Shown here piece by piece: positions 45,352-58,027 of a stretch of 64,000 nucleotides of DNA. The notes beneath the pieces were generated by a model, which was given only the letters and a program-made list of their open reading frames with translations, did no database searches and was not told where the DNA came from. The stretch is from Nocardiopsis sinuspersici (GTDB lineage: Bacteria; Actinomycetota; Actinomycetes; Streptosporangiales; Streptosporangiaceae), in contig VWVT01000004.1 of assembly GCA_008638415.1 (NCBI GenBank), positions 248,001-312,000 on the forward strand, read 5' to 3'. A program made the translations under genes and the position numbers. How positions within the stretch are numbered: the first letter of the stretch is position 1; every line of letters starts with the position of its first letter.

Positions 45352-46383
45352 ATGACCGACCACGACCCCGCCACCGCCCCCGCCAGTGACGGCGCCTCCC
45401 TGATGGCCGCGCTCCGAGAACTGGGCTTGTCCGACCGCCTCCTGAAGGACATGACCGACGATCCCGAGCGCGCGGGCAGCCTCCTCATGGAGTCCGTCGC
45501 TGACCTGGACCGTACGGAGAGGGGCGACCAGGCCCGACGCCTGCTGGAGACCGTGCGCGACCACGCCCCCGCTCCGGAGGACCGTCAGCACGCTTCCGTC
45601 CGGCTGGCCAGGCTCCTGCGCGAGGGCCGGGGAGTGCGGGACGAGGCCGAGGCGGAGCGGATCACCGCCGAACTGCTCCGGCCCGGCCACCTGGCCGAGG
45701 GCCCCGCCCAGATCCTCGGCGAGGACCTCCAGAAGCTGGAACGGTGGGACGAGGCGCTGCACTGCCACAACGTCGCCGCCCGGCGACTGCTCGCCGAACC
45801 ACCGGAGGAGCTCGCGGACGAGAGCGACCTCTCCCTGGCCCCGCTCGTCAGCCGTCTGCTGGCACGGATGAAGCTGGGGCTGCCACTCGACGCGCACGAC
45901 GACGTGGCCATGGCCGTGGCCCGGCGGCAGGTGGAGGGTGCACTGGAGTTCTCCGGCGAGGAGGGCGGGGCCGGGCCGGAGGAGGAGCCGGAGGGGGACG
46001 GGCCGGACCGGGAGGTGGAGGCGCTCTACTCCCGTGAGGCCTTCGACGAGGCCCGCGACCGGGGACTGCTCACGGGGGAGGCCGCCGAACACGGCGCCGA
46101 CGCCTACTACCGCGCTGCTGAGCGGACCCTGCGGGAGCGGGCCCGCAAGCACCCCGGGGCGCGGTGGAGCGTGGTACTGCACGGTGTGGAGGAGATCGCG
46201 GAGTTCACCGAACGGCTCGGCCTGGGCCCGGCGGACGGCGAGACCGCCCTGGACTGGGCGGAACTGGAGCTCACCGAGGACGACCCGAGGCTCCGGTCGT
46301 GGCCGCCCGGCCGCAACGAGGCCTGCTGGTGCGGCTCGGACCGCAAGTACAAGAAGTGCTGCGGCTCGCCCTCGAACCGGTGA
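45352..46383 (+). CDS. SEC-C motif protein with helical repeats
   Basis: The 343-residue protein has a helical TPR-like N-terminal and middle region (RGDQARRLLETVRDHAPAPE, WDEALHCHNVAARRLL), an acidic spacer (EEGGAGPEEEPEGDGPDRE) and a C-terminal SEC-C zinc motif GRNEACWCGSDRKYKKCCG. SEC-C proteins bind zinc and often SecB-like or nucleic acid partners. A TAGGCT box 6 bases before ATG 45352 suggests a leaderless transcript. Confidence 0.8.
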   Translation: MTDHDPATAPASDGASLMAALRELGLSDRLLKDMTDDPERAGSLLMESVADLDRTERGDQARRLLETVRDHAPAPEDRQHASVRLARLLREGRGVRDEAEAERITAELLRPGHLAEGPAQILGEDLQKLERWDEALHCHNVAARRLLAEPPEELADESDLSLAPLVSRLLARMKLGLPLDAHDDVAMAVARRQVEGALEFSGEEGGAGPEEEPEGDGPDREVEALYSREAFDEARDRGLLTGEAAEHGADAYYRAAERTLRERARKHPGARWSVVLHGVEEIAEFTERLGLGPADGETALDWAELELTEDDPRLRSWPPGRNEACWCGSDRKYKKCCGSPSNR

Positions 46384-48344: not shown

Positions 48345-49055
48345 GTGGACAGGCGCGGTTTCGGAGGACTGGTCACCGACGGGCAGTGGGAGCGCCTGCT
48401 CGCATCGGCGGTACCCAGGACGTTCGCCGAAGGGCAGATGCTTCTGCGGCAGGGGGAGGTGGGCGGAGGGATCCACCTCATGGTGAGAGGCCGCGCCAAG
48501 GTCGTCTCCGTCCGGGCCGACGGTTCCTGCGTCCCCCTGGCCTTCCGGACCTGCGGGGAGATGCTGGGGGAGTCCGCGCTTGCCGGGGCGGGGCGTCCCA
48601 GGAGCGCCACGGTGACGGCCCTGTCCCCGACCAGCACGGCCTTCCTTCCCGTAGAGCGCTTCCAGCGGCTACTGGCCGAACTCGGCCTGGAACCCGTGCT
48701 GTGGCACAGCGCCCTCATGCGCCAGGACGAGGGCGACCGGATCAGGATGCGGCAGACGGCCCTTCCCGCCGAACGCAGGCTGCCCGCCGCACTGCTTCAT
48801 CTCGCCTCGGTCATGGGGGAGCCCATCCCCGCCCCCGTCTCCGACGGCGGCGCACCGGCCACGCGCGGATGCCTGTTGAGGATCTCCCTGGCCCAGCGCG
48901 AGATCGCCGAGTTCGCGGGTATGTCGCGCACCTCGGTGCACAACGCCTACACCTCCCTCCGCGAGCGGGGCGTCATCCGGACCGGGCGCCAGTACGTGGC
49001 GATCCTCGACCTGGCGGCACTGGAGGCCCTGTCCGGAGAGAACGAAACGGTGTGA
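48345..49055 (+). CDS. Crp/Fnr family transcriptional regulator
   Basis: The 236-residue protein has a cyclic-nucleotide-binding-like beta barrel (FAEGQMLLRQGEVGGGIHLM, GEMLGESALAGAGRPRSATV) and a winged HTH (LAQREIAEFAGMSRTSVHNA). Key cAMP-contact residues cannot be assigned with certainty. GTG 48345 follows AGGGGAGAC. It is transcribed just before the cyclase-like operon and two palindromes lie in between, so it may regulate that operon, and a cyclic nucleotide made there might in turn bind it. That link is inference. Confidence 0.85.
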   Translation: MDRRGFGGLVTDGQWERLLASAVPRTFAEGQMLLRQGEVGGGIHLMVRGRAKVVSVRADGSCVPLAFRTCGEMLGESALAGAGRPRSATVTALSPTSTAFLPVERFQRLLAELGLEPVLWHSALMRQDEGDRIRMRQTALPAERRLPAALLHLASVMGEPIPAPVSDGGAPATRGCLLRISLAQREIAEFAGMSRTSVHNAYTSLRERGVIRTGRQYVAILDLAALEALSGENETV

Positions 49056-49077: not shown

Positions 49078-49131
49078 GTGTTCAAAGCTGAACACCGCCG
49101 GAGGCGTGCTGCGAGGAGTGTGGTCCCACAC
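49078..49131 (+). promoter_or_regulatory. Two palindromes upstream of the cyclase-like operon
   Basis: GTGTTCA-AAGC-TGAACAC (49078-49095) is a perfect 7-bp inverted repeat and GTGTGG-TC-CCACAC (49118-49131) a perfect 6-bp one. Both lie in the 114-bp gap between the Crp-family gene and the cyclase-like gene. The first has the size and dyad of a Crp-family site; either could also be a terminator. Assignment is tentative. Confidence 0.5.
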
Positions 49132-49169: not shown

Positions 49170-50033
49170 ATGGAGATCGACCTTTCCGGCATCGGCAAGA
49201 GCGCGCCCCTTCCGCCCTACCGCGCCGTGCTGGCGGTGGACATGGAGAAGTTCAGTTCCAGCAGTGCCCGCAACCAGCAGCTCATCGGCCAGAAGATCCC
49301 CGAGGTGCTGGAGAAGGCGTTCACCCGCGCCGACATGCTCCCCGTGTGGAAGGGCGCGCGCTTTCCTCGGCACAGCGGTGACGGCTACGTGATGGGAGCC
49401 GAACCCGAGCACCTGCCCTACCTCATCAGCCCCCTCCTGGAGGAGTTGCAGGAGGTCCTGGAACAGGTGCAGCCCCTTCTCGCCATGCACGACCGGAACC
49501 TGCGCATGCGGCTGCGCGCCAGTATCGATGTCGGCCCCCTGCCCGACACCGGTGACGGCAGCGGCATCGACGCCATGGGAGAGGCGATGATCAGCACCCA
49601 CCGGTTGTTGGACTCCGAGCCCGTCCGTGCCGCGCTCCGGGAGTCCGACCCCGACACCACCCTGCTGGCCACCATCATCTCCCGACGCGTCTACGAGGAT
49701 GTGGTCCTGGGCGGCTTCGCCCCCGTCCGCGCCAGCCGCTGGCGGCCCGTACACGCGGCCGTGCCCGCCAAGGACTTCCAGGCCGAGGGCTACCTGTTCG
49801 TGCCGACCCCGTCGTGGGCTCCCGGCGGTCACGTGTCACCAGGGGAGGCCGCCGCAGCCGAGCGGGGCCGCCCGGACGAGCAGGCCCGCCCGGAGAAGCC
49901 GGTCCCCGCCGCGTCGGGCGGGTCCACCCCGACTACGGGCAACAGCGTCGGCCACAACGACCGCGGACAGGTCGTCCAGGCTGGGACGGTCAACGGCGGT
50001 GTCAGCTTCGGAGGTGGCTCCGATGACTCCTGA
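49170..50033 (+). CDS. Class III nucleotide cyclase-like protein with C-terminal RHIM/BASS-like motif
   Basis: The 287-residue protein has a class III adenylate/guanylate cyclase fold: YRAVLAVDMEKFSSS with the first metal Asp (D24) and RHSGDGYVMG with the second (D71), then LRMRLRASIDVGPLP and AMGEAMISTHRLLDSEPVR. Both metal aspartates are kept, so catalysis is possible. A disordered Pro/Ala-rich tail leads to a terminal motif GNSVGHNDRGQVVQAG then TVNGGVSF (residues about 257-280). The same motif opens the next protein. Its last 11 bases overlap the next gene. No known cyclase of the Pycsar type is matched with certainty. Confidence 0.7.
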   Translation: MEIDLSGIGKSAPLPPYRAVLAVDMEKFSSSSARNQQLIGQKIPEVLEKAFTRADMLPVWKGARFPRHSGDGYVMGAEPEHLPYLISPLLEELQEVLEQVQPLLAMHDRNLRMRLRASIDVGPLPDTGDGSGIDAMGEAMISTHRLLDSEPVRAALRESDPDTTLLATIISRRVYEDVVLGGFAPVRASRWRPVHAAVPAKDFQAEGYLFVPTPSWAPGGHVSPGEAAAAERGRPDEQARPEKPVPAASGGSTPTTGNSVGHNDRGQVVQAGTVNGGVSFGGGSDDS

Positions 50034-52050
50034 AGAGCCCTGGGACGCGGACGCCTATGCCGACGCCGCGGACGGAACTCCGCCGGAAACGCGCGGCAAC
50101 GACAGGTCCGGGCCGTCCGCGGGCAACACCGTCCAGGACAACCAGGGCCAGGTGGTCAGCGCCGACAGCATCAACGGAGGTGTCCACCAGTACCACCAGT
50201 ACCGAGAGTTCCTCGGGGAGGCCGCCACCCGCAGACTCCGCCACGCGGCCGAACTGGGCCCGGACCGGGTCAGGGAGATCCTGGCCACCTTCTGTCCCAG
50301 CGATGCCCGGAAGTACACCGCGTTCACCGAGGAGCTGGCACGGCACCGGCTGGGCCTGGTCACCGGTGAACCCGGCAGGGGGCGGACCTCCGCCGCGATC
50401 CACGCGCTGGCCACACTGCGCCCCGGTGAACCCGTGGACGAGGTGATCGCCGACGCCGACGTCGCCGACGCGGGACTGGCCGGTATCACCCTGTCCTCCG
50501 AGCGCCCGCGCTTCATGGATCTGAGTGATCTGCGCGGCCCCGGAGCCGAGCAGCGGGCGGCGGTCAGGAAACTGGTCGAGAAGGTCCGTGCCTCTGGCGC
50601 CCTCCTCATCGTCATCTGCCGCTCCGGCCCCTGGGAACAGGAGCTCGCCGCGTGCCGTGCACGCCTGCGCGTCGACGCCCCGGCACACGCCGTGGACGTC
50701 TTCCGCCACGTCATGGGCGGTCTGTACGGCGTCGACCGTGCCCGGCGCTGGGCCGCCGACCCGCGTGTGGCGGCGGCGCTGTCCGGTGCCGGACCGGACA
50801 GCGCGGTACGGCTCGCCCGGGACGCGGAGCGCACCAGCTCTCCGCACGCGCCTCTGGCCGAAGAGGACCACACGGCCTGGATCGAACGCGCGCTCAAGGA
50901 GTTCACCGACGCCGCCGACGTCCTCCCCGGCTGGTTCCCCCATGACCGGGACGATCGGGAGAACGAGTTCCTCCGGGTCCTCACCCAGGCCGTGGCGCTG
51001 CTGGAAGGAGCGCCCTCGCCCACCGTTGTCCACCACGCCCACGGACTGGCCGAACGGTGGGGCGTGTCCCCGATGCGTCCCACCCCCATCTCGGGCGGCG
51101 GCTTCACCGAGTACCTGAGCGGGATCGGCGCCCACCTCCACCAGGACCGGGTCCGCTTCCACCGCCCCGGCCACGGCGACGACGCCCTGGGCCACCTGTG
51201 GCGCGAGCACCCCGACGCGCGGGCCTCCTTCCAGGAGTGGGCCTGCGCCGCGACGCCCGCACTCTCCCGGGGAGAGCGGGTGGAGGTGGCCCGCCGCTGG
51301 CTGACCCTGGCCCGCCGGTACCGCGACCCGGCACCGCTGGAGACGCTGCTGGACCAGTGGAGCGCCTCGCCCACCCTGCAACCGGCCGCCGTCCCCGCGA
51401 TCGCCGAGGCGGCCGTCACCCGGGAACTGGGTGCCCCGATCCGCAACCGGCTCTACCGCATCGCCTCCTCACGCAAGCCGACACCGCGCGACCGGATGGT
51501 GTTGGAGGTGTGCCGGGTCTACGGGCGGATCCAGCCGAAGACGGCGCTCACCCGGTTGCGCCACCTCGCGGGCAAAGCCCAGGAGGCATGGAAGGAGGAC
51601 CTCCTACGTGCCCTGGAGGACATCGCCGCCGAGCCGGGCAACCTTCCGGTGGTACTGGACGCGGTGTCGGAGTGGGTGGACGGTGACGGCAGGCGTTCCA
51701 CCCTGGCCGCCCGTGCGCTGCTGCGGTTGCTGGAGGCTCAGGCCCCCGAGGACTTCAGGGTCCTGAACGGACTGCGGCGGGGCGCGCTGGAACCTGGGAC
51801 GGTGTCCGCCGCCTGGTGTGCCGTCCACCTGTCCGCCGTCCGCCCCGACCCCGTGCTGTGGTCCTGGCTCGACGCCCTGGCCGTCCAGCGCCGCACGGAC
51901 GGACCCGTCCCGGCCTCGCTCCTGGGCGCGGCGTCGAGGAATCCGGGCTTCGCCGACACGCTCGGGCGCTGCGCGCGCCGCTGGTCCCACGCGCACACCC
52001 GTACCTCGCCCGCAGTGGAGGAACTGCGCTGCGCCCTCGACGAGACCTGA
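50023..52050 (+). CDS. P-loop protein with N-terminal RHIM/BASS-like motif and helical repeats
   Basis: The 675-residue protein starts with a disordered acidic stretch and, at about residues 34-57, GNTVQDNQGQVVSAD then SINGGVHQ, matching the tail of the preceding cyclase-like protein. A P-loop-type GEPGRGRTS follows at 115-123, with Arg in place of the Walker A Lys, and then FMDLSDLRG. The rest is helical, HEAT-like. The layout, motif then NTPase-like domain then helical repeats, recalls STAND/NLR proteins, but canonical Walker A is lost, so ATP binding is doubtful. ATG 50023 overlaps gene 1 by 11 bases. Confidence 0.65.
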   Translation: MTPEEPWDADAYADAADGTPPETRGNDRSGPSAGNTVQDNQGQVVSADSINGGVHQYHQYREFLGEAATRRLRHAAELGPDRVREILATFCPSDARKYTAFTEELARHRLGLVTGEPGRGRTSAAIHALATLRPGEPVDEVIADADVADAGLAGITLSSERPRFMDLSDLRGPGAEQRAAVRKLVEKVRASGALLIVICRSGPWEQELAACRARLRVDAPAHAVDVFRHVMGGLYGVDRARRWAADPRVAAALSGAGPDSAVRLARDAERTSSPHAPLAEEDHTAWIERALKEFTDAADVLPGWFPHDRDDRENEFLRVLTQAVALLEGAPSPTVVHHAHGLAERWGVSPMRPTPISGGGFTEYLSGIGAHLHQDRVRFHRPGHGDDALGHLWREHPDARASFQEWACAATPALSRGERVEVARRWLTLARRYRDPAPLETLLDQWSASPTLQPAAVPAIAEAAVTRELGAPIRNRLYRIASSRKPTPRDRMVLEVCRVYGRIQPKTALTRLRHLAGKAQEAWKEDLLRALEDIAAEPGNLPVVLDAVSEWVDGDGRRSTLAARALLRLLEAQAPEDFRVLNGLRRGALEPGTVSAAWCAVHLSAVRPDPVLWSWLDALAVQRRTDGPVPASLLGAASRNPGFADTLGRCARRWSHAHTRTSPAVEELRCALDET

Positions 52051-52060
52051 GGAGGACACC

Positions 52061-52870
52061 ATGCTCCGAGAACTGTTCATGTCGCTAATCCACACCCTGT
52101 TCGGTCCCCCGCCGGGCAAGGGACGCCCGAACCACCACGACGTCGTGGAGGAACGGCTCGCTTTCACCGCGCGACTGCCCACCAGCAGCCAGGGATTGTG
52201 GTTCGACGCCTCCTTCGACCTGGTGGTCGTCTGGTACCGGGCCGCGGGCAGCGAACACGCCCGCGACCGGGCCGTGCTCCAAGGCGCCTTGATCCGCGAG
52301 GCCGCCCGGCGCAGCACGGACTTCGCGCTCGGCGACCACGGACGCGCGCAGGCGGAGGTCTCCTGCGCGCTGACCGAGGGCGGCGGCTTCGGCGTCCGGA
52401 CCATCCACGACCTGGGCGTCGGGGTGGCCCTCACCGCGCACGAGGAGGACCTGGCCCTGGAACGCCAGCGCCAGCTGGTGTGGCACCGTGCCGAGGTAGC
52501 CCGGGAGGAACACCGCGTGCGCATGCGCCGGGTTCAGGAGCTGCGCGAGGAGGTGCTCCACGATCCGCTGGTCGCACGCGTGTGGTGGTTCGAGCAGCAC
52601 CAGGAGCGCTGGAACGAGATCGCCGTCGCGGGCGCCGCGCTCGATCTGCTGTCCCCGTGTCAGGTATCCGGATCTGATACCGGACATGCCTGGCCGGGAG
52701 GGACGACGTCAGCCGAGGAACCCGAGGAAGACCCCGTGTTGGACGCCTTCCTCTCCGGCCTGGAGGGACACGAGAAAGCTGCGGTGCTACAGCGCCTGAC
52801 CGACATCCTCGAGGCCTTCGAGCGCCGCGACCTGGCTCAGCGCCTCCGGGAGCAGTGGCCGCAGAGCTAA
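52061..52870 (+). CDS. Unknown protein, third gene of the cyclase-like operon
   Basis: The 269-residue protein starts after GAGGAGG, 10 bases behind the P-loop gene stop. The first 130 residues are mixed alpha/beta (LWFDASFDLVVVWYRAAG, FGVRTIHDLGVGVALTA). A charged helix, probably a coiled coil (about 135-175: LERQRQLVWHRAEVAREEHR), follows, then a conserved-looking DPLVARVWWFEQHQERWNEI. The pattern could fit an SPFH/stomatin-like protein, but I do not recognise a family with confidence. Operon position suggests it acts with the two proteins before it. Confidence 0.6.
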   Translation: MLRELFMSLIHTLFGPPPGKGRPNHHDVVEERLAFTARLPTSSQGLWFDASFDLVVVWYRAAGSEHARDRAVLQGALIREAARRSTDFALGDHGRAQAEVSCALTEGGGFGVRTIHDLGVGVALTAHEEDLALERQRQLVWHRAEVAREEHRVRMRRVQELREEVLHDPLVARVWWFEQHQERWNEIAVAGAALDLLSPCQVSGSDTGHAWPGGTTSAEEPEEDPVLDAFLSGLEGHEKAAVLQRLTDILEAFERRDLAQRLREQWPQS

Positions 52871-55160: not shown

Positions 55161-56123
55161 GTGGCGACGGTTTTCGTGTACGTGGGTGAGAAGGGGCGGA
55201 AGAACCTCGACACCGGGATCCGTGAATCGGTATGGGGCTGGAAGCCCGGCGCTGTGGAGGGCAAGTCGCACCTGGAGGTACTCCAGTCCCTTCACGCGGG
55301 GGACTACCTGGTCCTGGGCTATCTGGGCCTGGGAAGGATCAAGGCGGAGCGGGCACAGGGACGCACGGTGTCCGAGCTGATCATCACCCGGCTCACCGGC
55401 GGTCTCTACGAGGCACACATCCCGGTCTGGGATGACGAAACGTATCCGTACCGATTGCCAATGGACGTGCTGGAGGTATGGAAGGACGTCGGCAGAACCG
55501 ACATCGGCGACGACGCATGGGAAGCCCTACGGCGCTCCGCGACCAACAGCTGCACCGCCATACCTTCCGCGAACGAGGACTCCTTCATGGAGAAGGTCCT
55601 GGCCAAGGTCCTGGGGGAATGGCAGCAGGAACTCGTCCAGGCCGGAAAGGCGGCGGACGCCTCCGGTGATGCCGACGACCCCGCGGACATCGCGGCACTC
55701 GACCTGCCACCGGTGACCGACCGTCTGGCCTATGTCCGCGCTCGCACGGAGCAGAAGGCACTGCGCCGCAGAAAACTCGCAGGGAGGAACGAAGTTCCCT
55801 GCGACCTCTGTCAGCTCCTGCTGCCCAAGCGGCTCGTGCACACCGCTCACATCAAGCGGCGCAGTGTGACCTCCCGTCAAGAGCGCGGAGACCTCAGCAA
55901 CGTCATGTTCGCCTGCGTGCTCGGCTGCGACTCGCTCTTCGAACACGGCTACGTCTACGTCGACGCGGACGGGGCGATCCGCCCCGCAGAGCAGTCTGCG
56001 AACACCCCCGACCTCACCACCGCCGTCGCGCGCCTCGGTGACACCTGCACCGCCCACACCGGCGCGAGCGCCGACTACTTCTCCTGGCACCGCCACAACA
56101 TCGCCCACGTGAAAGAGAGCTGA
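55161..56123 (+). CDS. EVE-like domain and HNH nuclease, putative modification-dependent restriction enzyme
   Basis: The 320-residue protein has an N-terminal PUA/EVE-like domain (VFVYVGEKGRKNLDTGIRES, GWKPG, GDYLVLGYLGLGRIKAER, YPYRLPMDVLEVWKD), the fold that reads modified cytosines, and a C-terminal HNH nuclease near residue 214 with CDLC, HTAHIKRRSVTSRQERGD and a late FEHGYVYVDADG. EVE-HNH fusions are known type IV restriction enzymes. GTG 55161 follows GGGGAGGA. Its stop overlaps the start of the helicase gene (TGATG), implying a two-protein system. The EVE call is moderately sure, HNH more so. Confidence 0.65.
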   Translation: MATVFVYVGEKGRKNLDTGIRESVWGWKPGAVEGKSHLEVLQSLHAGDYLVLGYLGLGRIKAERAQGRTVSELIITRLTGGLYEAHIPVWDDETYPYRLPMDVLEVWKDVGRTDIGDDAWEALRRSATNSCTAIPSANEDSFMEKVLAKVLGEWQQELVQAGKAADASGDADDPADIAALDLPPVTDRLAYVRARTEQKALRRRKLAGRNEVPCDLCQLLLPKRLVHTAHIKRRSVTSRQERGDLSNVMFACVLGCDSLFEHGYVYVDADGAIRPAEQSANTPDLTTAVARLGDTCTAHTGASADYFSWHRHNIAHVKES

Positions 56124-58027
56124 TGCCGGAAACCTCCCCCACCACCCCCCTGCGCTTCGTCCATGCCGGCCGAGTCGGTGACACGGCCAAGGAGCTGCGG
56201 CAGCCCGACTTCGTCGAACGCTGTGTATCCGCCTACCGAGCCGCTGGTTTCGGAGAACCCGGTGAGTCCGAGATCCGCAGTTGGCGCAACAGCTGGCCCC
56301 CGTTGATGGACGCCCTGGTCCGTGCGGGCCTGGAGAACCTCTACGTCTACCTCGAGTTCGCCACCCTCGACACCGAGAGCCGTATCGATGCCCTGCTCGT
56401 CGGCAGCCGAGCCACGGACGACGCGATCGCCGTCGTGGTGGAGCTGAAGCAGTGGACCGAAGCGAACTCCGTGGCCACCAACCTGGTACGTCTGCCCGGC
56501 AGTGAACGGCTGTGGACGCACCCGCTCGCCCAGACCGCCGGCTACATGGCCTTCCTCGACCAGTGGTTCGGGTCGGACACGGTCGAGCTCGAGGTGCGGG
56601 GCGTGGCCTTCCTCCACAACGCGACCCGCTCCCAGGCCGACAGCGTCCGGGACAGCGGACGGCTGCCCTCCGGCTACCGCGTACCCGTGCTGAGCGGGGA
56701 GGAGACGCGCGACGCGAAGAGCCAGGCGGACCTGCGGCAGCTCTTCCAGTGCGGCGACGTGCAGGAACTCGAGGAACGCGTACACCGTCACTTCGAGGAA
56801 GCGCGGTGGCGTGGGAGCGAATCCCTGCTGGCCAGCGTGGCCGCCGCTGTGCGAGGCGAACCCTCGTTCAAGCTCGTCGGTGACCAGCAGACCGCCCTCC
56901 TCGACATCCGGGCCCGGGTCCAGAGCGCGCTGGACGGCGGCCGTCGCACCGTCATCGTGGTCCAGGGAGGGCCGGGTAGCGGAAAGACCGCGCTGGCCAT
57001 GCGGCTGCTCGGTGACTACGTCAACAACCCGGACGTGCGCGCCCGCTACGGGACGCCCTCCGGCGCCCTGACACGCAACCTGCGGGAGACCTTGGAGGTC
57101 GCCGGTTCCGACCCGCTGTTCCAGCTGCCGAAGAACAAGGTGCGCGACTCCAGCCTGATGATCATCGACGAGGTCCACCGCTACCACCAACGCAGCGGCG
57201 GCCTCCGCTCCTACGTCCTGGGGAACCTGTCGGAGGTCCGCGTCGTGGTCGTCTTCCTCGACGAGCGCCAGCGGGTCCGGCCCAACGAGGGCGTGACCGA
57301 GCGGGAGATCCGTGAGTTCGCCCAGGAGGCGACACCTCCCCTCGACGTGGTCACGCACAACCTCAACGGCAGCTTCCGCTGCAACGGCTCCCGGGAGTTC
57401 AACACGTGGGTGGACGACCTGCTGTACGAGCAGCCGCGGACGTGGGCCGGGACCGACTACGACCTGGCCGTCAGCTCCAACCCGTCGGAGATGGAGCGGT
57501 GGCTCGATGCGTGTCTGGAAGAGGAGCGCAGCGCACGCATCAGCGCCGGGTTCTGCTGGGGATGGGACGAGGTGCGACTCGGGGAGGCGCTGCCCGGTGT
57601 CCGGATCGAGTGGGCGGGCGAACCGCACGGAGAGCCGCAGCGCTGGGAGCGTCCGTGGAACCTGCGCAAGGACCAGACGATCGCCGCGAGCGGTGAGTTC
57701 GTCGGTCCGGAGAGCTGGTTGTGGGCCACCCGGCCCGGGGGCGATCGCCAGGTCGGGTGCGTCTACACGGCGCAGGGACTGGAGTACGACGACGCCGGTG
57801 TCATCCTCGGCCCCGACCTGGTCCGCCGCGAGGGCCGTTGGGAGGCCCGTCCGGAGGAGAGCCGGGACAAGGCGATGCGGGGCGTCAGCACCGACGAGTA
57901 CCTCGACCTCGCGAAGAACACCTACCGGGTGCTGATGACCCGGGGGATGAGGTCGTGCCGCCTCTACTCCACGGACGAGGGGACCCAGGAGTTCCTGGCA
58001 TCGATCGTTCCCGGGACGACCAGCTGA
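56123..58027 (+). CDS. PD-(D/E)XK-like nuclease fused to DUF2075/Schlafen group 3 helicase (paralogue B)
   Basis: The 634-residue protein has N-terminal RIDALLVGS and VVVELKQW (about 105-112), then a DUF2075 helicase: GGPGSGKTALAM (about 281), LMIIDEVHRYHQRS (about 347), FLDERQRVRPNEG, SFRCNGS, QVGCVYTAQGLEYDDAGV and LMTRGMRSCRLYS. It diverges more from A and C than they do from each other. Its ATG shares a base with the stop of the EVE-HNH gene. It probably supplies DNA translocation to that nuclease. Confidence 0.85.
   Translation: MPETSPTTPLRFVHAGRVGDTAKELRQPDFVERCVSAYRAAGFGEPGESEIRSWRNSWPPLMDALVRAGLENLYVYLEFATLDTESRIDALLVGSRATDDAIAVVVELKQWTEANSVATNLVRLPGSERLWTHPLAQTAGYMAFLDQWFGSDTVELEVRGVAFLHNATRSQADSVRDSGRLPSGYRVPVLSGEETRDAKSQADLRQLFQCGDVQELEERVHRHFEEARWRGSESLLASVAAAVRGEPSFKLVGDQQTALLDIRARVQSALDGGRRTVIVVQGGPGSGKTALAMRLLGDYVNNPDVRARYGTPSGALTRNLRETLEVAGSDPLFQLPKNKVRDSSLMIIDEVHRYHQRSGGLRSYVLGNLSEVRVVVVFLDERQRVRPNEGVTEREIREFAQEATPPLDVVTHNLNGSFRCNGSREFNTWVDDLLYEQPRTWAGTDYDLAVSSNPSEMERWLDACLEEERSARISAGFCWGWDEVRLGEALPGVRIEWAGEPHGEPQRWERPWNLRKDQTIAASGEFVGPESWLWATRPGGDRQVGCVYTAQGLEYDDAGVILGPDLVRREGRWEARPEESRDKAMRGVSTDEYLDLAKNTYRVLMTRGMRSCRLYSTDEGTQEFLASIVPGTTS

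Follow-up and report, generated by a model that had tools for sequence, protein, structure and literature searches.

Matching RHIM-like motifs in adjacent cyclase-like and P-loop genes suggest an assembly-driven signalling circuit with a Crp-type regulator in Nocardiopsis sinuspersici

The DNA analyzed here is a stretch of 64,000 nucleotides of Nocardiopsis sinuspersici (contig VWVT01000004.1, positions 248,001 to 312,000; in the following called the window), a bacterium with a genome of 6145370 bases. The locus of interest consists of three consecutive genes, which encode a divergent class III nucleotidyl-cyclase-like protein (gene 1), a P-loop protein (gene 2) and a conserved third protein (gene 3), and of a gene for a Crp-type regulator located upstream of them (Table 1). 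Genes 1 and 2 overlap by 11 bp (50023-50033) and gene 3 starts 10 bp past gene 2, both as described in an earlier sequence-only reading of this DNA, and a gap of 114 bp separates the Crp-type gene from gene 1. The cyclase-like protein carries near its C-terminus a short motif that recurs near the N-terminus of the P-loop protein. These matched tags, which in Nocardiopsis and its relatives from soil vary in step from lineage to lineage, together with a probable cyclic-nucleotide-sensing switch encoded next to them, suggest a signalling circuit that is turned on by protein self-assembly.

Table 1. Features of the locus, with positions as in the window.
Feature	Position	Strand	Length (amino acids)	Details
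Rhodanese gene		+		5' of the Crp-type gene
Crp-type regulator	48345..49055	+	236	cNMP_binding (PF00027) and HTH_Crp_2 (PF13545)
Palindrome GTGTTCA-N4-TGAACAC	49078..49095			candidate operator of the Crp-type regulator, by spacing and position
Gene 1	49170..50033	+	287	divergent class III nucleotidyl-cyclase-like protein with C-terminal shared motif
RHIM-like motif GQVVQAGTVNGGV	49965..50003	+		gene 1 residues 266-278, near the C-terminus
Gene 2	50023..52050	+	675	P-loop protein, nSTAND3-like below threshold, with N-terminal shared motif
Matching motif GQVVSADSINGGV	50146..50184	+		gene 2 residues 42-54, near the N-terminus
Walker-A-like GEPGRGRT	50365..50388	+		gene 2 residues 115-122, Arg for Lys
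Gene 3	52061..52870	+	269	conserved third gene

The motif shared by the end of gene 1 and the start of gene 2, which the sequence-only reading had proposed, was confirmed. GQVVQAGTVNGGV in gene 1 corresponds to GQVVSADSINGGV in gene 2, flanked by GNSVGHNDR and GNTVQDNQ, respectively, and the one gap of the alignment sits in the flank. Local alignment of the two motifs with their flanks resulted in a score of 69, which was reached by none of 20000 shuffles (mean 27.2, standard deviation 4.6, maximum 63), and the best score of the motif elsewhere in gene 2, gene 3 or the Crp-type gene was 36. The motif of gene 1 contains the RHIM core [VI]Q.G..N in the form VQAGTVN. A looser pattern, which was written after seeing the sequences, was found in 46 of 80 gene 1 proteins and 16 of 23 gene 2 proteins compared to 10 of 540 tiles elsewhere.

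Across related loci the motifs were compared in 85 pieces of DNA that surround relatives of gene 1 in the genus and the family, comprising all places of the genus and 60 stretches of the family (mostly the strongest, some skipped). These gave 88 gene 1 rows, 78 of them with a downstream reading frame by the picking rule, which has a length of at least 450 residues in 68 cases. The cyclase tail aligned with the first 170 residues of its partner better than all 300 shuffles in 44 of the 68 pairs, and in 58 of them the tail scored higher against the partner N-terminus than against the rest of the partner. Due to the kinship among the pairs, the set was thinned to 18 representatives, each standing for one cyclase cluster and sharing less than 55 percent of its cyclase-domain residues with the others, and none of 20000 random re-pairings of these representatives reached the observed sum. 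The shuffles and the representatives supersede an earlier ranking of cognate against non-cognate partners, in which the cognate partner came first in 14 of 78 rows, a count diluted by close relatives. The outcomes that would have spoken against the sequence-only reading did not occur: the motif pairs persist and covary in orthologous gene pairs, the metal-binding aspartates are kept, and homologues of gene 2 are found next to gene 1.

One and the same kind of gene pair carries many different motif sequences. The RHIM-like class is found in Nocardiopsis and near relatives. Other loci show GGIGSIGG...GPVNIGGTQ (L070, L071; similar in L077), as an example with the pair GPVNIGGTQHN/GPVNVGGTQVN in L070, or GDxxQxxxGN (L082, L084-L087, L089, L090; in L085 in the form GDGAQSAFGNTV), IGGASHRA..VN..GRDQ (L093) and VTNV.HG.V.AS.A.FG (L047-L049, L051, L052). 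Further motifs are GSAH.I....ETH.G in L103, WYGG...AGRD in L105 and AIGRDQIN in L108. In the loci L038-L043, termed class B, cyclase and gene 2 share no match. By eye, a GGVFIGGSMTGGAIATG-type motif was seen to end the second gene and to begin the third gene in L038-L042 (at the second gene also in L043), a further layout with matched motifs among the same kind of genes. In L045 and L138 genes 1, 2 and 3 are spread over several frames, and these copies of the locus appear to be broken.

The relationship of gene 1 to class III cyclases, assumed in the sequence-only reading, was borne out by profile comparisons with solved structures and by the conserved aspartates. A profile of 22 members (A4) matched class III cyclases in nine of ten cases in the PDB, the best being 3mr7 (E-value 1.6e-5), followed among others by Ma1120 (5.6e-4), soluble guanylyl cyclase beta (0.043) and the ANP receptor (about 0.07). 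With a narrower profile of 25 relatives (A1), five of seven matches were cyclases, all of them weak (3mr7, 0.025; Ma1120, 0.042), and the gene 1 sequence alone retrieved no cyclase among the solved structures. Both metal aspartates, D24 and D71, are present and do not vary among the 25 A1 rows. In 115 aligned gene 1 rows D24 (113 rows), D71 (114), R116 (114), R145 (114) and K201 (111) are near-invariant, and relatives with kept metal ligands share 22-55 percent identity with the window protein. The homologue search resulted in 80 proteins, some of which carry the UniRef name guanylate cyclase domain protein; the nearest named homologues are those of Nocardiopsis. This supports that gene 1 encodes, by homology, a divergent class III nucleotidyl-cyclase-like protein. 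Moreover, R67 of gene 1 stands four residues ahead of the metal ligand D71. For the cytidine triphosphate (CTP) cyclase EaPycC, the available text describes R142 as a residue for CTP specificity, four residues before the metal ligand D146 (PMC11224242). The spacing is the same in both proteins, and the base recognized by gene 1 is therefore maybe not adenine, a hint that comes from the counting of residues.

For gene 2, an alignment of 23 rows was used, comprising the window protein and 22 homologues, of which at least this number exists. The P-loop-like motif with arginine in place of lysine, to which the sequence-only reading had pointed, was confirmed as GEPGRGRT, and R121 is present in all 23 rows. 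The same holds for the glycines and the arginine of GxxGxGR as well as for D149 and D166. The P-loop lysine is present in some distant partners (L048, L049, L051, L077, L099, L104), and the arginine therefore looks derived inside a P-loop family; for other partners the pattern used gave no P-loop. In Pfam, all matches of gene 2 are below the cut-off, i.e., DUF6963 with 18.1 bits (cut-off 27), DUF1651 with 16.1 bits and nSTAND3 (PF20720) with 12.5 bits (cut-off 27.2). Among ten partner proteins from other loci, three have a sub-threshold nSTAND3 match (best 23.7 bits) and one has an above-threshold match to HEAT_2. The P-loop partner of the sequence-only reading is supported, as a protein that is STAND-like below threshold, and a Pfam assignment to nSTAND3 was not reached.

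The Crp-type gene, which was overlooked in the sequence-only reading, is the most conserved neighbour of the cyclase-like gene. It is located upstream of it, on the same strand and within 1.3 kb, in 67 of the 83 loci that hold a gene 1 relative of at least 75 bits. The window protein matches PF00027 (E-value 2.7e-17) and PF13545 (1e-12) above the cut-off and retains the G-E...R-S-A of the phosphate-binding cassette; over 68 rows the glycine is conserved in all 68, glutamate or aspartate in 67 and the arginine in 57. The palindrome between the Crp-type gene and gene 1, GTGTTCAAAGCTGAACAC, was overlooked there as well; it can also be read as GTTC-N6-GAAC, with half-sites spaced as in Crp and FNR boxes. 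The pattern GTGTYCAN4TGRACAC was searched with up to two mismatches in 89 rows, i.e., the window and the 88 gene 1 rows (a few loci being counted twice), with a total of 1246593 bp. This resulted in 41 hits, 31 of which lie in the 260 bp upstream of gene 1 and the other 10 elsewhere in the scanned DNA. In the host genome, the palindrome of the window at up to one mismatch occurs a single time, at this locus. Since the operator-like site is single in the genome and placed upstream of gene 1, the Crp-type regulator looks dedicated to this operon. As judged from these sequence features, it would be a better candidate for the receiver of the signal than gene 3.

Some related loci contain a further component. 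A small gene on the opposite strand lies between the Crp-type and the cyclase-like gene in eight loci (L046-L049, L051, L052, L094, L095), and in L093 a relative is located at a distance of about 3 kb from the cyclase. All nine small genes match the PADLOC model for PycTM weakly (E-values 7e-6 to 8e-4; 17 to 24 bits), and the Pfam model PycTM matched one of the nine, below cut-off (E-value 0.025). In the window, neither PycTM nor PycTIR was detected by PADLOC (genes 1-3 and three neighbours) or by Pfam (eight window proteins). The last gene of the PycTM-containing locus L049 (2463-3818, reverse strand) encodes a DUF4407 membrane protein (PF14362, E-value 1.3e-58), and by eye similar genes follow also in L051, L099, L104 and L106. 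Gene 3 has no match in Pfam, NCBIfam or PADLOC, and its profile gave chance-level matches in the PDB. Its homologues adjoin gene 2 in related loci, and a remote similarity connects it with the third gene in loci that carry other motifs (L105 type: hhalign 86 percent, E-value 4.7e-6), with no similarity to those of the L049 type (hhalign 0.2 percent). A Band_7/SPFH label for gene 3, an unconfirmed impression from reading, was dropped; the profile comparison with Band_7 proteins of the host yielded no match but was void, with at least some rows in the wrong frame.

At an E-value of 1e-5, at least 22 of the 40 genomes examined in the genus contain a gene 1 relative, as do at least 102 of 150 in the family sample. 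With profile A4 at 1e-6, they were found in at least 6 of 198 genomes of the phylum sample, namely in the host itself and in five members of a single other family. All of these counts are lower bounds, with part of the candidates scored per genome. Carriers include Nocardiopsis xinjiangensis, N. ganjiahuensis, N. alkaliphila, N. halophila and N. chromatogenes, and furthermore Streptomonospora nanhaiensis and Marinactinospora thermotolerans. Regarding a mobile origin, phage records searched with gene 1 gave no match, and five plasmid records match it with 36-38 percent identity across 71 percent of the protein. In the wider surroundings, two Schlafen-group-3 helicase genes (PF09848; 53018-55264 on the reverse and 56123-58027 on the forward strand) flank one further gene. 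Both match the PADLOC candidate PDC-S41, and the neighbourhood may therefore be defence-related. Upstream, at 45352-46383 on the forward strand, the window encodes a protein with a C-terminal SEC-C-like cysteine motif, and by eye a similar protein adjoins the trio in L032.

The layout of the locus, the covarying motifs, the class III homology, the Crp-type neighbour and the genome-unique operator-like site are observed, and on this basis the locus might encode a circuit related to Pycsar, where an amyloid-like motif allows gene 2 to nucleate gene 1 and the cyclic nucleotide made is read by the Crp-type protein. We give this proposal an even chance of being right; from the observations we infer the amyloid nature of the motif, the catalysis and its product, the direction of the control by the Crp-type protein, the trigger and the role of gene 3. 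A trigger would be met by the C-terminal part of the STAND-like P-loop protein, and gene 2 would cluster. Its N-terminal RHIM-like motif would then template the C-terminal motif of gene 1 resulting in an amyloid-like assembly; its place and its N-terminal motif are those of a nucleating STAND receptor. Class III cyclase active sites form between two subunits. Crowding in the assembly could bring the cyclase domains into head-to-tail dimers in which these sites form, leading to production of a cyclic nucleotide monophosphate (cNMP). The Crp-type protein, a neighbour with its own site and the natural reader, would bind the cyclic nucleotide and act at the palindrome upstream of gene 1, thereby changing transcription of genes 1-3, most likely as a positive feedback. 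Gene 3 may be a system-specific partner or effector. Extended beyond the window, the locus may belong to a large actinobacterial class of immune circuits based on cyclic nucleotides, in which pair-matched barcodes of amyloid type, many of them without sequence relationship to one another, turn on a cyclase via templated assembly, a dedicated Crp-type protein with a single operator in the genome closes the feedback and Pycsar-like effectors act in some branches; this generalization is more tentative, and we would put it at rather less than an even chance.

Several findings weigh against the proposed circuit. The chief doubt concerning the amyloid nature is the weak RHIM core of gene 2, which reads VSADSIN and has serine and aspartate where RHIM has glutamine and glycine. 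The strict core [VI]Q.G..[NH] is present in 26 of 80 gene 1 proteins and in 2 of 23 gene 2 proteins, and the motif profile A6 found no RHIM structure among the structures compared. The sequence-only reading had ascribed the motif to the RHIM-like type of bacterial amyloid signalling sequences (BASS); the core of gene 1 fits this, whereas that of gene 2 departs from it, and the Pfam model RHIM matches neither gene 1 nor gene 2. The best Pfam match of gene 2 is DUF6963, not nSTAND3, and the protein is devoid of the Walker lysine. For catalysis by gene 1, the missing asparagine is the chief doubt. In typical class III cyclases the residue four before the transition-state arginine is asparagine. 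At this position, four before R145, the 115 gene 1 rows mostly show isoleucine (43) or valine (32), next to asparagine (24) and threonine (12), and the window protein has isoleucine. The transition-state asparagine is thus mostly replaced, making the catalytic activity of gene 1 uncertain. Furthermore, gene 1 has no family match in Pfam (up to an E-value of 1), NCBIfam or PADLOC, the Pfam cyclase models including Guanylate_cyc match neither gene 1 nor any of the 22 A4 members, and PADLOC, with its Pycsar cyclase model, found nothing for gene 1 or two relatives. On the side of the regulator, 16 of the 83 loci have no detected Crp-type gene (two of them, L033 and L058, meet the contig edge there), and the operator-like site is present in only 31 of 89 rows. 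As to the motif pairs, 24 of 68 do not score above every shuffle, and the six class-B loci (L038-L043) belong to this group. The cognate partner of the 18 representatives is best in its row for 12 and in its column for 11, in both for 8, and L038, L044 and L115 look unmatched. For the RHIM-like cyclase tails of L034, L057, L062 and L064, the 5.5 kb downstream contain no convincing counterpart of the motif; of the four genomes behind these loci, three hold another gene 1 copy elsewhere.

The loss of the catalytic-pair asparagine in most of the 115 rows fits a different role for gene 1. It may be a dead or sensor cyclase fold that binds a nucleotide and is tethered by the motif to gene 2, so that the nucleotide level gates the assembly, and the Crp-type protein would sense a cyclic nucleotide from elsewhere. 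In favour of this, the host genome encodes elsewhere one class III cyclase recognized by Pfam (PF00211). However, the metal aspartates, the arginine and the lysine are kept almost throughout at 22-55 percent identity, which is unusual for a dead enzyme, and some relatives are adjoined by PycTM-like genes. We therefore regard a non-catalytic gene 1 as unlikely.

The shared motif could likewise be an ordinary docking strand, i.e., a beta-strand or a small folded dimer interface, holding the two proteins together with no propagation as an amyloid. Fibril formation is a deduced part of the proposed circuit, some motif classes comprise 20-30 residues with little RHIM likeness, and the four cyclases with a tail and no evident partner are compatible with such a tether. 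Yet the same motif stands on both sides, as homotypic templating predicts, amyloid motifs are well known from the N-termini of STAND proteins, and VQAGTVN of gene 1 fits the BASS3 core VQVGDGN (PMC8086366). We regard a docking strand as unlikely, slightly more so than a non-catalytic gene 1. A coincidence of composition in Gly-/Pro-rich tails of high-GC genes hardly deserves belief. The tails are indeed rich in proline, alanine and glycine and weak pairs exist, but the similarity was reproduced neither by composition-keeping shuffles nor by other regions of the partners nor by re-pairings between loci. The circuit of templated assembly, cyclase and Crp-type reader remains our preferred reading.

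Parts of this circuit resemble known systems. Dyrka et al. reportedly described in 2020 bacterial amyloid signalling sequences such as the RHIM-like BASS3 at the N-termini of STAND/NLR proteins. The accessible texts of two further papers describe amyloid motifs at STAND N-termini as well (PMC8086366, PMC12261475), and a BASS3 peptide with the core VQVGDGN was reported to aggregate (PMC8086366). As in BASS3 systems, a short motif is present in the N-terminal part of a STAND-like protein and again at one end of the protein encoded by the adjacent gene, with a resembling core in gene 1. It differs in that the partner is cyclase-like, in the many motif sequences per kind of gene pair and in the departure of the window gene 2 from the RHIM core. 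With Pycsar, which according to the available text combines a class III PycC cyclase with PycTM or PycTIR (PMC11224242), it shares a class III-type cyclase with two metal aspartates, PycTM-like genes in nine related loci and a cNMP-binding protein encoded next door. In contrast to Pycsar, the window has no Pycsar match, a DNA-binding protein of Crp type is the candidate receiver and there is an additional STAND-like partner that carries a matched motif.

Kaur et al. described conflict systems that are coupled by EADs and contain cNMP cyclases together with cores of the STAND or VMAP type (PMC7159879, PMC8195603). In these systems a homotypic module common to adjacent genes recruits a signalling enzyme to an NTPase core, and cNMP cyclases are found, iSTAND2 contexts included. 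The papers also mention a CRP-like regulator that recognizes cNMPs, in some related systems of actinobacteria for peptide processing. According to them, EADs are small domains and mostly alpha-helical, whereas here a short tail motif is found, and Pfam gave no EAD or VMAP match in the eight window proteins scanned. DUF2652 proteins are divergent cyclase-like proteins as well, partly from Actinobacteria and in some cases with cNMP-binding neighbours (Ramakrishnan et al., 2016; PMC4886424). They belong to another family, gene 1 having no Pfam match up to an E-value of 1, and the part of that paper available mentions neither such a motif nor a STAND partner for them. Among the matches listed in a search of open-licence PubMed Central (title and start of abstract), none joins amyloid motifs, class III cyclases and a STAND protein. 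Judged by the accessible texts, STAND proteins with N-terminal amyloid motifs, EAD-linked systems that contain cNMP cyclases, and Pycsar have each been described already, and their combination seems to be new.

If the proposed circuit is true, amyloid templating and cyclic-nucleotide signalling, which we found described only apart, would be joined in one compact circuit of assembly, second messenger and dedicated regulator. Moreover, the many motif types on one kind of gene pair would then offer a natural series for the specificity and the origin of amyloid signalling motifs.

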